Below, piece by piece: positions 6,346-19,354 of a stretch of DNA of 64,000 nucleotides (position 1 is its first letter; every line of letters starts with the position of its first letter). The notes beneath the pieces were generated by a model. The model was not told where the DNA came from, did no database searches, and saw only the letters and a list, made by a program, of their open reading frames with translations. The position numbers and the translations under genes are program-made. This DNA is from an uncultured Sphingomonadaceae bacterium (lineage in GTDB: Bacteria > Pseudomonadota > Alphaproteobacteria > Sphingomonadales > Sphingomonadaceae), in contig CANLQI010000001.1 in the NCBI GenBank assembly GCA_947493325.1, positions 1,627,375 to 1,691,374 on the forward strand, in the 5' to 3' direction.

Positions 6346-7284
6346 TCAATCGCCCGCGTCCGCGAGCGCCTCCTCCACAATTGCTTCGACCAGTTCGGCA
6401 TAATTCATACCCATATGCTTCGCCTGTTCAGGCACAAGGCTATAGGGTGTCATACCGGGCTGTGTGTTCGTTTCCAGAAGGAACAGACCGTCCGCGCCCA
6501 ATTCATCATCCCAGCGAAAATCCGACCGCGATGTACCTTTACAGCCCAGCAGCCGGTGTGCTTTCAGCGCATATTCGCGGCACAGCTGCGCTATATCTTC
6601 GGGAATATCCGCCGGGCAGATATGTGTCGTCAGCCCATCAGTATATTTGGCGTCATAATCATAGAAACCCGATTTGACCTGCAGCTCCGTCACGCACAAT
6701 GCCTTGTCACCAATCACAGCGGTGGTAAGTTCGCGCCCCTTGATGAAAGGTTCCGCCAGCAGATGATCGAAATCCTGCCATGGTCCTGTGCTGTCACGCG
6801 CAATAGGGGAGCCATAATTGCTGTCATCACGCACGATAGCAATGCCGACGGACGACCCTTCATTGACCGGTTTCAGCACATAAGGCCGCGGCAGCGGATC
6901 GCCTTCATACAGCGTCTCGCATTCCACCACCTTGCCTTCAGGCATGGGAATGCCATGCGGCACCAGCGCCTGTTTGGTAAGCTCCTTGTCAATCGCGATC
7001 ACCGATGTGACCAGCCCGCTATGCGTATAGGGAATTTGCATCAGGTCGAGCATGCCCTGCACTGTGCCGTCCTCGCCCGGCGTACCGTGCAGCGCGTTGA
7101 ACACCACATCAGGGCGTATCGCATCGAGCACCATGGCAAGGTTGCGGTCCATATCAACCCGCGACACTTTGTGCCCGCGCGATTCCAGCGCATCGGCCAC
7201 GCCATTGCCGCTCATCAGCGACACTTCGCGTTCTGCAGACCAGCCGCCCATCAGCACCGCGATATGATGTTTGGCGAGTGTCAT
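6346..7284 (-). CDS. ddl: D-alanine--D-alanine ligase
   Basis: AVLMGGWSAEREVSLMSG, HGTPGEDGTVQGMLDL, ETNTQPGMTPYSLVPEQA; start at MTLAKHH (longer ORF reads through a repeat). Confidence 0.96.
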   Translation of the reverse strand: MTLAKHHIAVLMGGWSAEREVSLMSGNGVADALESRGHKVSRVDMDRNLAMVLDAIRPDVVFNALHGTPGEDGTVQGMLDLMQIPYTHSGLVTSVIAIDKELTKQALVPHGIPMPEGKVVECETLYEGDPLPRPYVLKPVNEGSSVGIAIVRDDSNYGSPIARDSTGPWQDFDHLLAEPFIKGRELTTAVIGDKALCVTELQVKSGFYDYDAKYTDGLTTHICPADIPEDIAQLCREYALKAHRLLGCKGTSRSDFRWDDELGADGLFLLETNTQPGMTPYSLVPEQAKHMGMNYAELVEAIVEEALADAGD

Positions 7285-7302
7285 GACGCGTTCCCTTTTG
7301 CG

Positions 7303-7373
7303 CTCCTGCAAAAGTAGGAGCCTAGGGCAACCGGGTACTGCGCCGCTCTGGATTCCTGCTTTCGCAGGAATAC
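7303..7373. repeat. REP/BIME-like paired hairpin repeat, copy 1 (murB-ddl gap)
   Basis: CTCCTGCAAAAGTAGGAG ... ATTCCTGCTTTCGCAGGAAT; same architecture as the copy at 8314-8383; antisense reading gives the IPAKAGIQ string. Confidence 0.85.
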
Positions 7374-7390
7374 GATCAGGTAGCCACAGT

Positions 7391-8294
7391 TCATACCGCC
7401 TCTCCCACACGCTGGATTTCCCATTGCAGTTCAATGCCCGAATGCGCCTTCACACGTTTGCGCACTTCCTCGCCCAGCGCCTCGATATCCGCCGATGTCG
7501 CATCACCCAGATTGAGCAGGAAATTACAGTGTTTTTCGGACACCTGTGCGTCGCCCACTCGAAGGCCGCGGCAGCCTGCCGCGTCAACCAGCTGCCATGC
7601 CTTATGCCCCTCAGGATTTTTGAATGTCGATCCACCCGTGCGCGAACGCAGCGGCTGCGATGCTTCACGTTCGGCGGCGATGCGGTCCATTTCCGCGCCG
7701 ATTTCTTTCGGATCACCGGCAACGCCCCGAAACGTTGCCCCCACCACAATCGCGCCTTTGGGCAATTCGCTATGGCGATAGCGATAGCCCATATCCACCA
7801 GCGGCACCGTGGCCAGGCTACCATCACGCAGCACCAGATCGGCGCTCATCAGTATATCACACACTTCGCGGCCATAGGCACCGGCGTTCATCCGCACCGC
7901 GCCGCCCACCGTTCCGGGAATGCCGCGCAGGAATTCCAGCCCGGCAATGCCATTATCCCGCGCCTTGCTCGCCACCGAAATGCCCGGCGCCCCGGCGCCG
8001 CTGGTCAATATCCGCTCATCCACGCGGCGCGTATCAATGGCAGCAAACGCCTTGCCGAGCCGCACGGTCACGCCGCGCTTGCCGCCATCGCGGATAATCA
8101 GATTGGAACCAAGCCCCAGCGGCCATGCCTCAATATCATCATCCAGATTGGCAAGAAAATCCTGTAAATCGGCCACGTCCCTCGGTTCAAACAGCCAGTC
8201 CGCCCGGCCGCCGCTTTTGAACCAGACAAGCGGTGCCAATGGTGCGTCAGGTTTGAGCTTACCCTGTACGGATGGCATGTTGTGTGTGCTCATA
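7391..8294 (-). CDS. murB: UDP-N-acetylmuramate dehydrogenase MurB
   Basis: GLGSNLIIRDGG, FLRGIPGTVGGAVRMNAGAYG, RTGGSTFKNPEG; start at MSTHNMPS. Confidence 0.96.
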
Positions 8295-8313
8295 CGGGCT
8301 GCTCCTTCCCGTG

Positions 8314-8383
8314 CTCCTGCGAAAGCAGGAGCCCAGAGCAATGAGGCACTGCGCAGCCCTGGATTCCTGCTTTCGCAGGAATA
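8314..8383. repeat. REP/BIME-like paired hairpin repeat, copy 2 (murC-murB gap)
   Basis: GCTCCTGCGAAAGCAGGAGC (perfect palindromic hairpin) - N30 - ATTCCTGCTTTCGCAGGAAT. Confidence 0.88.
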
Positions 8384-8405
8384 CGGAAAGATGAAACCCG
8401 CCGCA

Positions 8406-9812
8406 TCATCCGCGCTTCGCCTTGATCGCATCGGCAAGCCCCGCCGCCCATTTGGTAATATCGCCCGCGCCCAGACACACGACCATGTCGCCCGCCTGGA
8501 CCGTACCAGCAAGCTCTGCAGCCAATGCATCGGCATCGGCTATGGTCGCCGCCGAACGCAGCCCACGCTGTTTCAGACCCGCAACCAGAGCTTCGGCATT
8601 AACGCCTTCAATCGGATCCTCGCCCGCTTCATACACCGGCGTCACATAGACGATATCGGCGTCGTTGAAACATTGCTGGAACTCATCCATCAGGTCGCGG
8701 AGCCGTGTGTAGCGGTGCGGCTGTACCACCGCGATGATGCGGTTTTGAGCGCCCTCGCGCGCCGCCGCCAGCACGGCTTTAATCTCGACCGGGTGATGCC
8801 CGTAATCATCGATAATGACCGCGCCACCCACTTCACCCACTTTGGTAAAGCGCCGCTTGACGCCGCCAAACGTCGCAAAACCGTTCTGCACATCTTCATC
8901 GGACATGCCCATTTGCAAACCGATCGTGACGGCAGCCAAGGCATTTTGTACGTTATGCCGCCCTGGCATCGGTAATTCGATGCCTTCAATCTTGCGGCTG
9001 GTGCCATCTTTTTCGCTGACCGTGACATCAAACCGGTTACCGCCCGGAATTGGCGTCACGTTTTCGCCGCGCACATCTGCCTGCGCGCTGAAACCATAGG
9101 TGATGATCCGGCGGTCCTTCACCTGCGGCAGGATCGCCTGCACTTCAGGATGATCGAGGCACAGGATCGCGGCTCCGTAAAAGGGCACATTTTCGACAAA
9201 TTCGATAAATGCTTTTTTAAGCACATCGAAACTGCCGTAATGCTCCATATGTTCAGGGTCGATATTGGTGACAACAGCCAGCGTCCCATCGAGCCGCAGA
9301 AAGCTGCCGTCGCTTTCGTCAGCCTCGACCACCATCCAGTCGCCATCGCCCAGCCGCGCATTGGAACCGTACGTATTGATGATGCCGCCATTGATAACAG
9401 TCGGGTCGATCCCGCCATGGTCAAGCATCGCCGCCACCATCGATGTGGTCGTGGTCTTGCCATGCGTGCCCGCAATCGCAATGGTGGATTTCAGCCGCAT
9501 CAGCTCGGCCAGCATTTCCGCGCGCTTTACCACCGGAATACGGTTTTCCAGCGCATAGACCACTTCAGGGTTCGTGCGCTTGATCGCTGTCGAGGTCACG
9601 ATCACCGCTGCGCCTTCGACATTGTCTGCCTTTTGCCCGATCATCACCTTGATACCGCGATCACGCAGACCTTCCACCACATAGCTTTCGGCAATATCGC
9701 TGCCCTGCACGGTATAGCCCAGGTTGTGCATCACTTCCGCGATGCCCGACATGCCGATACCGCCAATGCCGACGAAATGGATGGTACCGATATCAGTGCC
9801 GACTGCCTTCAT
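8406..9812 (-). CDS. murC: UDP-N-acetylmuramate--L-alanine ligase MurC
   Basis: [45 protein letters not shown]. Confidence 0.97.
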
Positions 9813-14668: not shown

Positions 14669-16069
14669 CTATCCGGCGGCCTGCTTATGGTCTGCTCCAG
14701 TGAGCGAACCCACAACCGCTGCCAGACCCATGGCATTGGAACCCTTCACCAGCAATGCATCGCCAGCGCATAATTGAGTTTTCAACAGTTTTTCTGCCTC
14801 CAACGCATCCGCGACATGCACGGCTTTTGTCGCATGATCGGGGTCGGACGCGATCGTTTCGGCCAGAATTTTCATTTCCTCGCCTACCAGAATGGCCAGA
14901 TCGACCTGTGCCGAACGCAGCGGCACAGCAAGTTCTGCGTGATATGTATCGCTGGCTTCGCCCAGCTCTTTCATAGCGCCCAGCAGTACGATACGGCGGT
15001 CCGCCGCTTCTGCGCCCAATGCCGCAATAGTTACGCCCATCGAAGCGGGGTTCGCATTATAGCTTTCGTCAATCAGCAGCGCCGTGCCGCCATCCAGTAT
15101 GATTTGATGCCGCGCGCCGCGTCCAGCCATACCCGGCAACTCGGCGAGAGCCAGACCCGCGGCCGCCAGATCACCGCCCGCCGCCTGCACCGCCGCCATA
15201 ATAGCCAGCGAATTGAGCACCCAGTGTGCGCCTGCCTCGGCAACTGTATAGCATAAATGTACATCACCGACCTCAGCGGTTATCAATGTGCCGCCATTTA
15301 TGGCCGCGACTGTATCGATGGCGCGCACATCCGCATCCGCATGCAGTCCGAATGTGACGATATTGGCCGCATGCTTTTCCGCTGCCGCACGCAGCCGTTC
15401 ATAATGCGGATTGTCACGCGGAATTATGGCAGTGCCGCCTTCCTGCAGCCCCTCGAAAATCTCCGCCTTGGCATCGGCAATTTCTTCCTCGCCGGAAAAA
15501 TGGCCGATATGCGCCGGGGCGATGGTCGTGATGATCGCAACATCGGGTCGCACAAGCTGTGTCAGCGCGGACAATTCGCCGCTATGGTTCATGCCCATTT
15601 CAAAAATGCCAAATTTCGTATCGGCGGGCATACGCGACAGGCTGAGCGGTACGCCAACGTGATTGTTATAGCTTTTGACCGAGCGATGCGCCTTGCCGTG
15701 CGAACAGCGGCTGAGCGCCGCGAACAACGCTTCTTTCGTGCCTGTCTTGCCCGCAGAGCCGGTGACGCCGATAATTTTGGCATCGACCCGTGCGCGCGCC
15801 GCCCGCGCCAGATCATCAAGCGCCTGCGTACTGTCGGCCACACGGATATGCGGGTGCGCACAGTCCTGCTGCGACACGGCGCCGCTGGCACCATTATCAA
15901 ACGCTTTGTCCAGATAAAGATGGCCATCGCTTTCCTCACCCTTAAGTGCAAAGAACAGATCGCCAGAGGCCACTTCACGCGAGTCAAATTCCACGCCGGT
16001 CACGTCAAAATCCATATTGGCCTTTCCATTTACAGCCTTTTCAATGTCAGAGGATTTCCATAGCGTCAT
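14669..16069 (-). CDS. murF: UDP-N-acetylmuramoyl-tripeptide--D-alanyl-D-alanine ligase MurF
   Basis: GVTGSAGKTGTKEAL, NYNNHVGVPLSL-like SYNNHVGVPLSLSRMP, LLIDESYNANPASM. Confidence 0.96.
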   Translation of the reverse strand: MTLWKSSDIEKAVNGKANMDFDVTGVEFDSREVASGDLFFALKGEESDGHLYLDKAFDNGASGAVSQQDCAHPHIRVADSTQALDDLARAARARVDAKIIGVTGSAGKTGTKEALFAALSRCSHGKAHRSVKSYNNHVGVPLSLSRMPADTKFGIFEMGMNHSGELSALTQLVRPDVAIITTIAPAHIGHFSGEEEIADAKAEIFEGLQEGGTAIIPRDNPHYERLRAAAEKHAANIVTFGLHADADVRAIDTVAAINGGTLITAEVGDVHLCYTVAEAGAHWVLNSLAIMAAVQAAGGDLAAAGLALAELPGMAGRGARHQIILDGGTALLIDESYNANPASMGVTIAALGAEAADRRIVLLGAMKELGEASDTYHAELAVPLRSAQVDLAILVGEEMKILAETIASDPDHATKAVHVADALEAEKLLKTQLCAGDALLVKGSNAMGLAAVVGSLTGADHKQAAG

Positions 16070-16236
16070 CGCGCACCGCCTTTATCCCCGCGCGCAGGAT
16101 TGCCGCGCTTCGAACGTGTAAAAACCGCGCGCAAAGGTGCTGCAAGAATATCCAAAGTGCTGGTTACGGGACGCGCACGTCCTTTTTTGATTTCCGATCC
16201 TTTCGGATAAGACGCATAAAAATTATATTCCATCAT
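16066..16236 (-). CDS. Uncharacterised 56-aa basic protein encoded between murE and murF
   Basis: Hand-translated, below the ORF track length cut-off: MMEYNFYASYPKGSEIKKGRARPVTSTLDILAAPLRAVFTRSKRGNPARGDKGGAR*; ATGA overlap with murE stop (16233-16236) and with murF start (16066-16069). Confidence 0.65.
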   Translation of the reverse strand: MMEYNFYASYPKGSEIKKGRARPVTSTLDILAAPLRAVFTRSKRGNPARGDKGGAR

Positions 16237-17660
16237 GCCGCACACTCCCGCGCTACTTCCACATCATCAAATGGCAACACACGGTCGCCCACTATCTGTC
16301 CCTGCTCATGCCCCTTGCCCGCCAGCAGAATAATGTCGTCACCGCCCGCCAATGAAATGGCATGGGCGATCGCGGTGCGGCGGTCCGCCACTTCTTCACC
16401 ATGCGTCACCGCCGCCATGATTTCACCGCGGATTGCGGCGGGGTCTTCACTGCGCGGATTATCGTCTGTGACGATCACGATATCGGACATATCGGAGGCA
16501 ATCTTACCCATTTCAGGCCGCTTGCCGGTGTCACGGTCACCGCCCGCACCAAAGAGCGTAATCAGCCGCCCCTTCACATGCGGGCGCAGCGCCTCAATCG
16601 CCGATTTGAGCGCATCGGGCGTGTGCGCATAATCGACATAGACCGGCGCGCCAGATGTGCAGATCACGGCGCGTTCCAGACGCCCGCGCACAGGCTGCAG
16701 CCGCGCGACATGGTCAAAAACTTCATCTGCTTTGCCGCCTGTCGCGAGCGCGAGCCCCGCGGAAGTCAAAGCATTGGCCGCCTGATACGCGCCGATCAGC
16801 GGCAGTGTGATACGCCGTGTCTCGCCTTCATGTTCGACCATCAGCACCTGACCAAGCTGCGTCGGCGTACGCGACAGCAGCTGGATCGTCTCACCCTTTT
16901 CACCCACGGTGAGCAGGTTCAATCCGCGTTCCTTCACAATTTCGATAACCTTGTCCGACCATGCATCATCGGCCCAGATAACGGCGCTGCCATTGTCCTC
17001 GACAACTTCACGGAACAACCGCATTTTGGCGTCGAAATAACTGCCCATATCGCCATGATAGTCAAGATGATCGCGGCTCAGATTGGTGAAACCTGCAGCA
17101 TGGACCGGAAGGCCTTCGGTACGGTATTGCGAAAGGCCGTGGCTTGAGGCCTCGAATATGGCATGTGTCACACCTTCACGCGCCAACCCGGTCATGTTCG
17201 ACAGAAATGTCACGATATCGGGCGTGGTCAGGCCAGTATAATTCTGATCTTTCGATGTGGTAATGCCGAGTGTGCCGATGGACGCCGCAACATTGCCATC
17301 CATATGCCACAGCTGCCGCGTCATTTCCGCGCAGCTGGTCTTGCCATTGGTGCCGGTAACGGCGGCAGTAATTTTCGGGACAGGCTGAAAAAAACGGGCG
17401 GCAAGCGCAGCGAATGTCTTGCGCGGCTCTTCGGATGCAATGTGTACTGCACCCTCAACAACAGCTTCCGGCCTGGCAATAATCGCGGCCGCACCGCTGG
17501 CAATCGCCGCCTCGATAAAATCCTCACCATTGAATTTTGCACCTTGAAACGCGCCAAACACAGTGCCGGGTGCGACTTTGCGGTGGTCGATGGCAAATCC
17601 GGTGACGATCCGTTCGGCGTCATCCCCGATAGCGAGCGATGACAGGCTCGACAATTTCAT
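16233..17660 (-). CDS. murE: UDP-N-acetylmuramoyl-tripeptide (meso-DAP-adding) synthetase MurE
   Basis: AAVTGTNGKTSCAEMTRQLW, VDYAHTPDALKSAIEALR, TDDNPRSEDPAAI (DNPR motif typical of the DAP-adding enzyme); start at MKLSSLSS. Confidence 0.96.
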   Translation of the reverse strand: MKLSSLSSLAIGDDAERIVTGFAIDHRKVAPGTVFGAFQGAKFNGEDFIEAAIASGAAAIIARPEAVVEGAVHIASEEPRKTFAALAARFFQPVPKITAAVTGTNGKTSCAEMTRQLWHMDGNVAASIGTLGITTSKDQNYTGLTTPDIVTFLSNMTGLAREGVTHAIFEASSHGLSQYRTEGLPVHAAGFTNLSRDHLDYHGDMGSYFDAKMRLFREVVEDNGSAVIWADDAWSDKVIEIVKERGLNLLTVGEKGETIQLLSRTPTQLGQVLMVEHEGETRRITLPLIGAYQAANALTSAGLALATGGKADEVFDHVARLQPVRGRLERAVICTSGAPVYVDYAHTPDALKSAIEALRPHVKGRLITLFGAGGDRDTGKRPEMGKIASDMSDIVIVTDDNPRSEDPAAIRGEIMAAVTHGEEVADRRTAIAHAISLAGGDDIILLAGKGHEQGQIVGDRVLPFDDVEVARECAA

Positions 17661-19354
17661 TACGTTGCTCCTTTCGGACGCCACAGCAGCGGCGTGAGTT
17701 CGGAGACATCGACATCGCGGCTATCATCGGGAACAACGCCCAGCATCGGGCCGATGCGCGGAACCAGGCGCTTTACCACCGGCGCAGCTGTCCAGCCCGC
17801 CGTGCGCTGTCCGAATGTTTCGGCAATACCCTTGGGTTCATCCAGCATGGCGATGACGACATATTTGGGATCATCCATGGGGAATGCCGCCGCAAATGTG
17901 GAAACAAGCGAGCTTTTATTATACCCGCCGCCGGACGGTTTTTCTGCAGAGCCGGTTTTGCCGCCAATCCGGAAACCCGGCGCATCAGCCTTGCGGCCTG
18001 TGCCGTCAGATACAATCATGCGCAGCAATTGCCGCATCCGCGCGCTGGTCGATGCCTTGAACACGCGGCGACCGGGATCCGCCTTGTCAGGGTCAACCTT
18101 TTCCAGCGTGGCCGGACGCCAGATACCGCCATTGACCAGCGCAGCATATGCGCTCGCCAGATGCAGCGGAGTCACGGCAATACCGTGCCCATAGGCCACG
18201 GTCATATTGGTGACACGGCCCCAGTTTTGCGGCCACAGCGGATGGCCCGCCTCAACCAGCTCAATACCGGGGCGTGCATCAAATTCGAGATCGCGGAACA
18301 TGGCTTCCATCCGCTCACGGCCCAGGTTGTCGGCAATCCGCGCAGTCACGATGTTGGAACTGTGCACCAGTGCCTCGGGTACATTGAGATAGCGGCCCTG
18401 CGAATGGTCATCCTTGATGCGAAAACGCCCGACTTTCAGGGGCTCTGTCGCATTATAGCGGGTGGCCAGATTAGCCACCGTACCTGCGTCCAACGCCGCC
18501 GCCACTGCAAGCGGCTTAAAGGTGGAACCCAGTTCATAGACACTATATGTCGCATCATTCACCTGATGCCTGAGCGCGCTTGCATCAATTTTATTGGGGT
18601 TGAATTCGGGGAGCGATGCCATTGCCATCACTTCACCTGTATGTACATCCAGCACGATACCTGTCGCCCCGCGCGCCGAATGTTTTTTCATCGTCGCGCT
18701 AAGTTCGTTTTCCAGCGCGGCCTGTACGCGGATATCAATGGAAAGCGCAGCTGGCTCAGCCAGCTTATCGGGGTCTGTCAGGCGTTTTTCCATGGCCTTT
18801 TCCATACCCATCACGCCTTTGCGGTCGGCATCGACATAGCCGAGCACATGCGCGCCCAGCCCGTGCTGCGGATAGAAACGCTCTTCTTCGCGCGGAAATT
18901 CAAAACCGACCTCGCCCAGTGCGTGCACTTTATTGGCATCTTCGGGGACAAGACGGCGGCGCAGATAGCTGGGCCGGTCCTTGTTCATGGCTTTCAGGAA
19001 TGTGGATGCCGGGGTATCGGGGAATATTTCGGCCAGCTGCTGTGCAAGCTGTTGCCTGTCGCCCAATATTTTTTCGGGAATGACGCGCAGCGCCCGCATT
19101 TTCATATTGCGCGCGAGCGGCACGCCATTGCGGTCGGTCAGGTCGGCACGCACGGGAATGACTTCGGTGGACGTCAGGCCGCTTTGCACCTGCTCCTCAA
19201 ACGCACCATAATAGACGAGCCGTAATATGAGCGTGGTGATCGCCAGCGCGAACAGCGCCAAAATGACAATCAGCCGCACCTGTGCGACCAATGTAACTTT
19301 CTGTTTGATATCAGCGAGACGGGGGCGTCCGCCTATTCCAACCAGAGCCGTCAT
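17660..19354 (-). CDS. ftsI: Peptidoglycan D,D-transpeptidase FtsI (PBP3-like)
   Basis: ELGSTFKPLAVAAAL (SxxK), HSSNIVTARIA (SxN), GKTGSAEKP (KTG). Confidence 0.95.
   Translation of the reverse strand: MTALVGIGGRPRLADIKQKVTLVAQVRLIVILALFALAITTLILRLVYYGAFEEQVQSGLTSTEVIPVRADLTDRNGVPLARNMKMRALRVIPEKILGDRQQLAQQLAEIFPDTPASTFLKAMNKDRPSYLRRRLVPEDANKVHALGEVGFEFPREEERFYPQHGLGAHVLGYVDADRKGVMGMEKAMEKRLTDPDKLAEPAALSIDIRVQAALENELSATMKKHSARGATGIVLDVHTGEVMAMASLPEFNPNKIDASALRHQVNDATYSVYELGSTFKPLAVAAALDAGTVANLATRYNATEPLKVGRFRIKDDHSQGRYLNVPEALVHSSNIVTARIADNLGRERMEAMFRDLEFDARPGIELVEAGHPLWPQNWGRVTNMTVAYGHGIAVTPLHLASAYAALVNGGIWRPATLEKVDPDKADPGRRVFKASTSARMRQLLRMIVSDGTGRKADAPGFRIGGKTGSAEKPSGGGYNKSSLVSTFAAAFPMDDPKYVVIAMLDEPKGIAETFGQRTAGWTAAPVVKRLVPRIGPMLGVVPDDSRDVDVSELTPLLWRPKGAT

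Follow-up and report, generated by a model that had tools for sequence, protein, structure and literature searches.

The 56-codon open reading frame ORF56, which lies between murE and murF in the dcw operon of an uncultured Sphingomonadaceae bacterium, is probably a relay cistron that preserves the ribosome hand-over from murE to murF and whose N-terminal half was co-opted as a microprotein specific to the genus. This reading was built from sequence comparison, in which ORF56 appears as a real gene under selection that is very probably translated. The mur joints offer a natural experiment on ATGA overlaps: unrelated inserts at the same joints keep the reading phase and not the sequence, which suggests that selection acts on the passing of ribosomes along the mur genes, or on their unbroken translation, as such.

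The features discussed are listed in Table 1, where positions are those of the window, i.e. the whole 64,000-nucleotide stretch of DNA that was analysed. The coordinates, the frame and the two ATGA overlaps given for the 56-aa ORF in the original prediction were all confirmed in the sequence. On the minus strand ORF56 runs from an ATG (16236-16234) to a TGA (16068-16066), the murE TGA being 16235-16233 and the murF ATG 16069-16067, and 163 nt separate the murE stop from the murF start. Both neighbours are ordinary Mur ligases according to Pfam. A start/stop overlap of -4 or -1 nt, as expected of coupled pairs, was found on both sides of ORF56. An upstream GTG at 16245 would give an alternative product of 59 aa but is a poorer candidate start than the ATG that overlaps the murE stop. 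The GGGAG before this ATG forms a predicted duplex of -10.2 kcal/mol with the 16S tail in all three congeners, and Shine-Dalgarno-like pairing occurs in the genus at both restart sites, that of ORF56 and that of murF. The 4-bp coupling described earlier for murG/ftsW, ftsW/murD and murD/mraY holds, and 4-nt overlaps also join murC/murG, ftsI/ftsL, ftsL/rsmH and rsmH/mraZ in the dcw cluster of the window.

Table 1. Positions of ORF56, its partners and the related elements in the window
Feature	Position	Strand	Basis
ORF56, 56-aa relay cistron (putative) between murE and murF	16066..16236	-	Sequence; same frame, spacing and overlaps in G001 and G002
murE, upstream partner	16233..17684	-	Pfam Mur_ligase_M 3.4e-45, Mur_ligase_C 6.9e-32
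murF, downstream partner	14669..16069	-	Pfam Mur_ligase_M 5.6e-43; 87-89% identity to congeners
ATGA overlap, ORF56 start on murE stop	16233..16236	-	Sequence; identical in G001 and G002
ATGA overlap, murF start on ORF56 stop	16066..16069	-	Sequence; ATGA in G002, TAATG in G001
ORF56 codons 1-23, conserved peptide MMEYNFYASYPKGSEI(K/R)KGR(A/V)R(P/R)	16168..16236	-	pN versus pS; third-position changes
ORF56 codons 24-56 and stop, fast-evolving tail with conserved hydrophobic/amphipathic pattern	16066..16167	-	pN/pS; predicted helices
GGGAG, Shine-Dalgarno-like, 8 nt before the ORF56 ATG, within the end of murE	16245..16249	-	Sequence
Second relay, 39-aa ORF between murC and murB, ATGA at both ends, built of a palindromic repeat	8290..8409	-	Insert absent in G001 and G002
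Third relay, 37-aa ORF between murB and ddl, ATGA at both ends, same repeat	7281..7394	-	Present in G001, absent in G002
Dispersed palindrome TATTCCTGCGAAAGCAGGAATCCAG within the murC-murB relay	8359..8383	-	Sequence
Same dispersed palindrome within the murB-ddl relay	7348..7372	-	Sequence

To place ORF56 among its counterparts, 177 murE-murF junctions were extracted and classified. The two genes overlap or sit within 15 nt of each other in 90 junctions, and about 50 carry an in-frame murF extension that begins on or just after the murE stop. An insert (counted for family junctions only, at >35 nt and with murF extensions excluded) was present in 30 junctions from 14 genera of the family, three of which belong to the ORF56 genus. 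The 27 inserts from the 13 other genera measure 46-265 nt, consist mostly of GC-rich repeat-like DNA and are unrelated to ORF56, and their lengths and sequences vary even within genera. A relay ORF from the murE stop to the murF start was open in all 30 inserts (27/27 outside the ORF56 genus), while 10.5/30 were expected after insert shuffling, 1.9 with one added nucleotide and 0.2 with two. Kinship was handled by counting genera and distinct lengths, since genomes of one genus are not independent, though lengths differ within genera; among 23 distinct genus/length cases, drawn from 14 genera, 21 had a gap length of 1 mod 3 (P = 1.1e-8), and the figure was 20/22 without the ORF56 genus and 13/14 with one case per genus (P = 6e-6). 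The relay ends on murF with an NTGA or TAATG/TGATG-type overlap in 28/30 junctions and with an 8-nt overlap in the other two, and the two exceptions to the 1 mod 3 rule still finish in an 8-nt overlap. Start codons of some downstream genes were inferred by alignment. Four junctions had no overlap (uncoupled), all of them outside the family. A coupling cistron had been one of two functions proposed for ORF56, and it is the better one, every non-extension insert of the family being kept as a double-overlap ORF.

The murF extension was also observed in its own right. In many other genera (e.g. L037, L048, L185) MurF begins on the murE stop with about 20 additional N-terminal residues, which read roughly HPALRxWPxxxRDxLPLALW, are similar across many genera and are absent in the ORF56 genome. 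Homology of ORF56 with this extension was considered and rejected on inspection.

The overlapping-step test was applied to 41 dcw clusters at gaps of at least 35 nt, a step being an in-frame extension or one to three relays. Gaps were crossed by overlapping steps only in 28/29 cases at murE-murF, 4/4 at murG-murC, 22/24 at murC-murB and 16/17 at murB-ddl; the lone miss at murE-murF (L234) is a murF extension whose start sits just past the stop. The ftsA-ftsZ spacer, a built-in control of similar length, was crossed in 3/39, near the shuffled rate of 2.2, while ftsQ-ftsA was crossed in 2/8 and ftsI-murE in 0/5, the latter perhaps due to start-site assignment. Because of these counts against the ftsA-ftsZ control, the relay rule, as read from the clusters compared, applies to the mur/ddl joints but does not extend to all spacers. 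An apparent failure of 4/16 at murC-murB in the first automated counts was discarded, as these were really chains of two or three relays, some with a real small gene. Such chains of overlapping mini-ORFs in series are seen at murC-murB of L226, L212 and L219 (65 + 55 + 7 aa in L226), and murB-ddl of L240 and L250 carries a different inserted gene of 164-165 aa with ATGA/GTGA overlaps at both ends.

Within the genus of the window (G000 for the window genome, G001 and G002 for its congeners) some of these joints exist both with and without an insert. At murB-ddl a direct ATGA (4-nt overlap) is found in G002 and the 37-aa relay in G000 and G001; at murC-murB the direct ATGA is found in G001 and the relay in G000. 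The 23-nt core of the palindrome from which both relays are built, TTCCTGCGAAAGCAGGAATCCAG, has 56 copies in the genome at no more than two mismatches, and the reversed control has 0. At nine other co-directional spacers of the genome the palindrome occurs with no relay, as judged from crude and noisy gene calls. Since the palindrome lacks a relay there and the mur joints have one, the relay seems to be imposed by the location and not carried by the repeat. Many copies of the palindrome apparently lie between convergent genes.

For the inserts at the mur/ddl joints, phase and openness are thus what the compared genomes conserve, and sequence is not. According to the favoured reading, ribosomes ending murE would halt at its TGA, reinitiate at the ORF56 ATG that overlaps it, translate 56 codons and terminate at a TGA sharing bases with the murF ATG, where they would start again. 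The junction would stay translated, and ribosomes would be passed from murE to murF, like at the direct ATGA overlap of insert-free relatives. The coupling may be partial, because murF has a Shine-Dalgarno-like sequence of its own. This same sequence also suits a different reading, by which the ORF merely keeps the spacer covered with ribosomes so that Rho spares transcription into murF, and reinitiation is not the selected step. The loading of Rho on untranslated RNA with resulting polarity is established (review PMC12548453), and such protection would equally favour open frames in long inserts. It has no need of a stop placed exactly on the next start, yet all 30 relays end in an overlap with murF; this argument is weak, because the TGA of the old ATGA was already present. 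Protection from Rho as the sole explanation seems rather unlikely, and we infer that the selected quantity is the ribosome hand-over (coupled reinitiation) and/or the protection of the mRNA from Rho.

The search for relatives bears on a further reading, in which ORF56 exists mainly to supply MurE/MurF or the divisome with a trans-acting accessory factor and merely happens to lie at this joint. The ORF56 product had no match in Pfam, NCBIfam, PHROGs or PDB sequences, and no phage or plasmid relative was found among the phage and plasmid records searched. A profile of the three sequences found the genus only, with no convincing relative among 401 family and 401 order genomes; it scores limited candidates per genome, by which very distant copies could escape, and many junctions were also read directly. 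Weak extra matches had E values of about 0.006-0.009, and those in G133 and G051, the two examined, map to unrelated loci. ORF56 DNA is single copy in the genome, and a repeat origin was ruled out by the absent second copy and the lack of an inverted repeat beyond a 9-nt palindrome. No Rfam family was found in the window between 7200 and 17700. In the family/order profile search no other genus thus showed an orthologue at this position, which a known dcw component would have. The comparison across Sphingomonadales that had been suggested for the junction therefore came out differently for its two aspects: the sequence of ORF56 was found in its genus only, while the double-overlap architecture recurs across the family.

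An accessory factor would agree with the conserved, aromatic-rich N terminus of ORF56, with its conserved hydrophobic pattern, and with a different, apparently conserved protein of 64-67 aa between murC and murB in several genera. Against it, the position and length of ORF56 follow the same rule as the unrelated inserts, and ORF56 is absent from all other genera tested and belongs to no known family. As the main reason for ORF56 this is unlikely. The accessory role for Mur ligases or the divisome named in the original prediction is possible for the conserved N-terminal half within the genus, and nothing points to a partner. The unannotated murC-murB protein itself was seen in L211, L212, L214, L215, L216, L219, L226, L227 and L250; it is helical-looking, ends roughly in WxSWxxLWGxK and has NTGA coupling at its start. 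Two of its sequences gave no Pfam match and one negligible NCBIfam match, and it appears to be the product of a small, conserved dcw gene.

The conservation of ORF56 was measured on three sequences, those of the window genome and its two congeners. The 163-nt spacing is exact in 3/3 genomes, with ATGA on the murE side in all. The protein identity among congeners is 53-56% for the ORF56 product against 87-89% for MurF. The frame is open in all three, and column shuffles preserved three open frames in 94/20,000 cases. In codons 1-23, pN was 0-0.055 and pS 0.57-0.78 (pN/pS 0-0.10), and 13 of the 16 variable columns were at third positions. The first six codons or so are invariant in DNA too, and in codons 7-23 the DNA varies and the protein is constant. 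Codons 24-55 are weakly constrained (pN/pS about 0.56-0.77), and the third-position bias among the three genomes is not significant there (27/72 variable columns). The whole ORF56 has a pN/pS of 0.37-0.44 versus 0.06-0.12 at the adjoining ends of murE and murF, a level of constraint that codons 1-23 equal, and the peptides of repeat-type relays evolve nearly freely (pN/pS 0.5-1.05). Purifying selection on amino acids, which marks a functional microprotein, was thus evident for codons 1-23 and weak for codons 24-55. Because the first 23 codons or so are under strong purifying selection, the product is very probably a functional microprotein in the genus.

These results support well the earlier view of ORF56 as a real translated cistron, which now draws on a conserved frame, conserved overlaps and the purifying selection on codons 1-23. 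The strongly basic character that had been noted is correct for the window (12 K/R versus 4 D/E) and weaker in the congeners (10 K/R versus 6 D/E, and 9 versus 5). As to the proposed amphipathic segment, the hydrophobic pattern is kept around L28-F39 in the tail and the sequence is not; helices were predicted at residues 27-31 and 33-40 by single-sequence structure prediction with low confidence (mean pLDDT 61).

Selection on the peptide also separates the favoured reading from a pure coupling device, in which ORF56 serves only by being translated and its peptide is a waste product, like that of the repeat-type relays in other genera. The unrelated inserts of the 13 other genera do the job with nearly neutral peptides, and the C-terminal half of ORF56 is weakly constrained, both as this reading would have it. 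The excess of pS over pN in codons 1-23 and the third-position changes would be needless for a pure coupler, and a constraint on the initiation region could cover the first six or so codons but leaves codons 7-23, with their changing DNA and unchanged protein, unexplained. We consider a pure coupling device improbable. Since repeat-type relay peptides are nearly unconstrained, the conservation of the ORF56 N terminus exceeds the need of either mechanism, coupled reinitiation or protection from Rho. A chance open frame in the spacer, for which it can be said that GC-rich DNA has long open frames and that single shuffled inserts of kept length retain the relay about one third of the time, is refuted by the three-genome conservation, the third-position bias and the family-wide phase rule and has a negligible probability.

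With ORF56 taken as a relay whose first half is a microprotein, its history was likely one of two: either an insert, obliged to act as a relay, later had its first half recruited, or an incoming small gene was adapted to the rule. Our guess is that the peptide acts locally on the Mur enzymes or the membrane. More generally, and only tentatively, the mur stretch of the dcw operon might have to stay continuously translated, which would force inserts into overlapping relay ORFs; these could serve as a nursery for new genes, ORF56 and the murC-murB protein of 64-67 aa being recruited microproteins. This would be a plausible way for an essential operon to gain a new protein-coding gene. Both points, the selected hand-over and the route to new genes, can be tested at the bench with the before/after pairs that one genus provides.

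The closest known case to ORF56, by analogy, appears to be the mycobacterial interspersed repetitive units (MIRU). In a review (PMC12548453, after Supply 1997), these are described as short ORFs between co-directional genes with a 4-nt overlap to the downstream gene, and their insertion as little harmful to expression; a short inserted ORF tied to the downstream gene by a 4-nt overlap is what they have in common with ORF56. Like MIRU, ORF56 has an internal ORF with NTGA-type overlaps of its neighbours, ATGA at both ends in G000 and G002 and ATGA plus TAATG in G001. MIRU are dispersed multi-copy repeats, whereas ORF56 has one copy; by the tests made, ORF56 resembles MIRU in the way it works but, lacking their repeat nature, does not belong to them. 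The second and third relays of the window do consist of repeats, which alone does not make them MIRU. In other genera the relays are formed by many unrelated inserts, and it therefore seems to be the location that selects the relay. In a literature search that left subscription journals mostly uncovered, no report of such relays in dcw clusters was found. NTGA overlaps are known for translational coupling by termination-reinitiation, in which ribosomes terminate and restart (PMC12548453, PMC6728339), and the relays have the same overlap types (-4, -1 and -8 nt) at both ends; here two coupled steps would run in series via a mini-cistron, or via two or three mini-cistrons at some murC-murB joints. 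Short upstream ORFs that deliver ribosomes to the next start, and the bicistronic design, are a further known parallel (PMC12548453). ORF56 shares with these a short ORF whose translation would feed the next start, and differs in being natural, in being also coupled to the upstream gene and in having a conserved N-terminal peptide.
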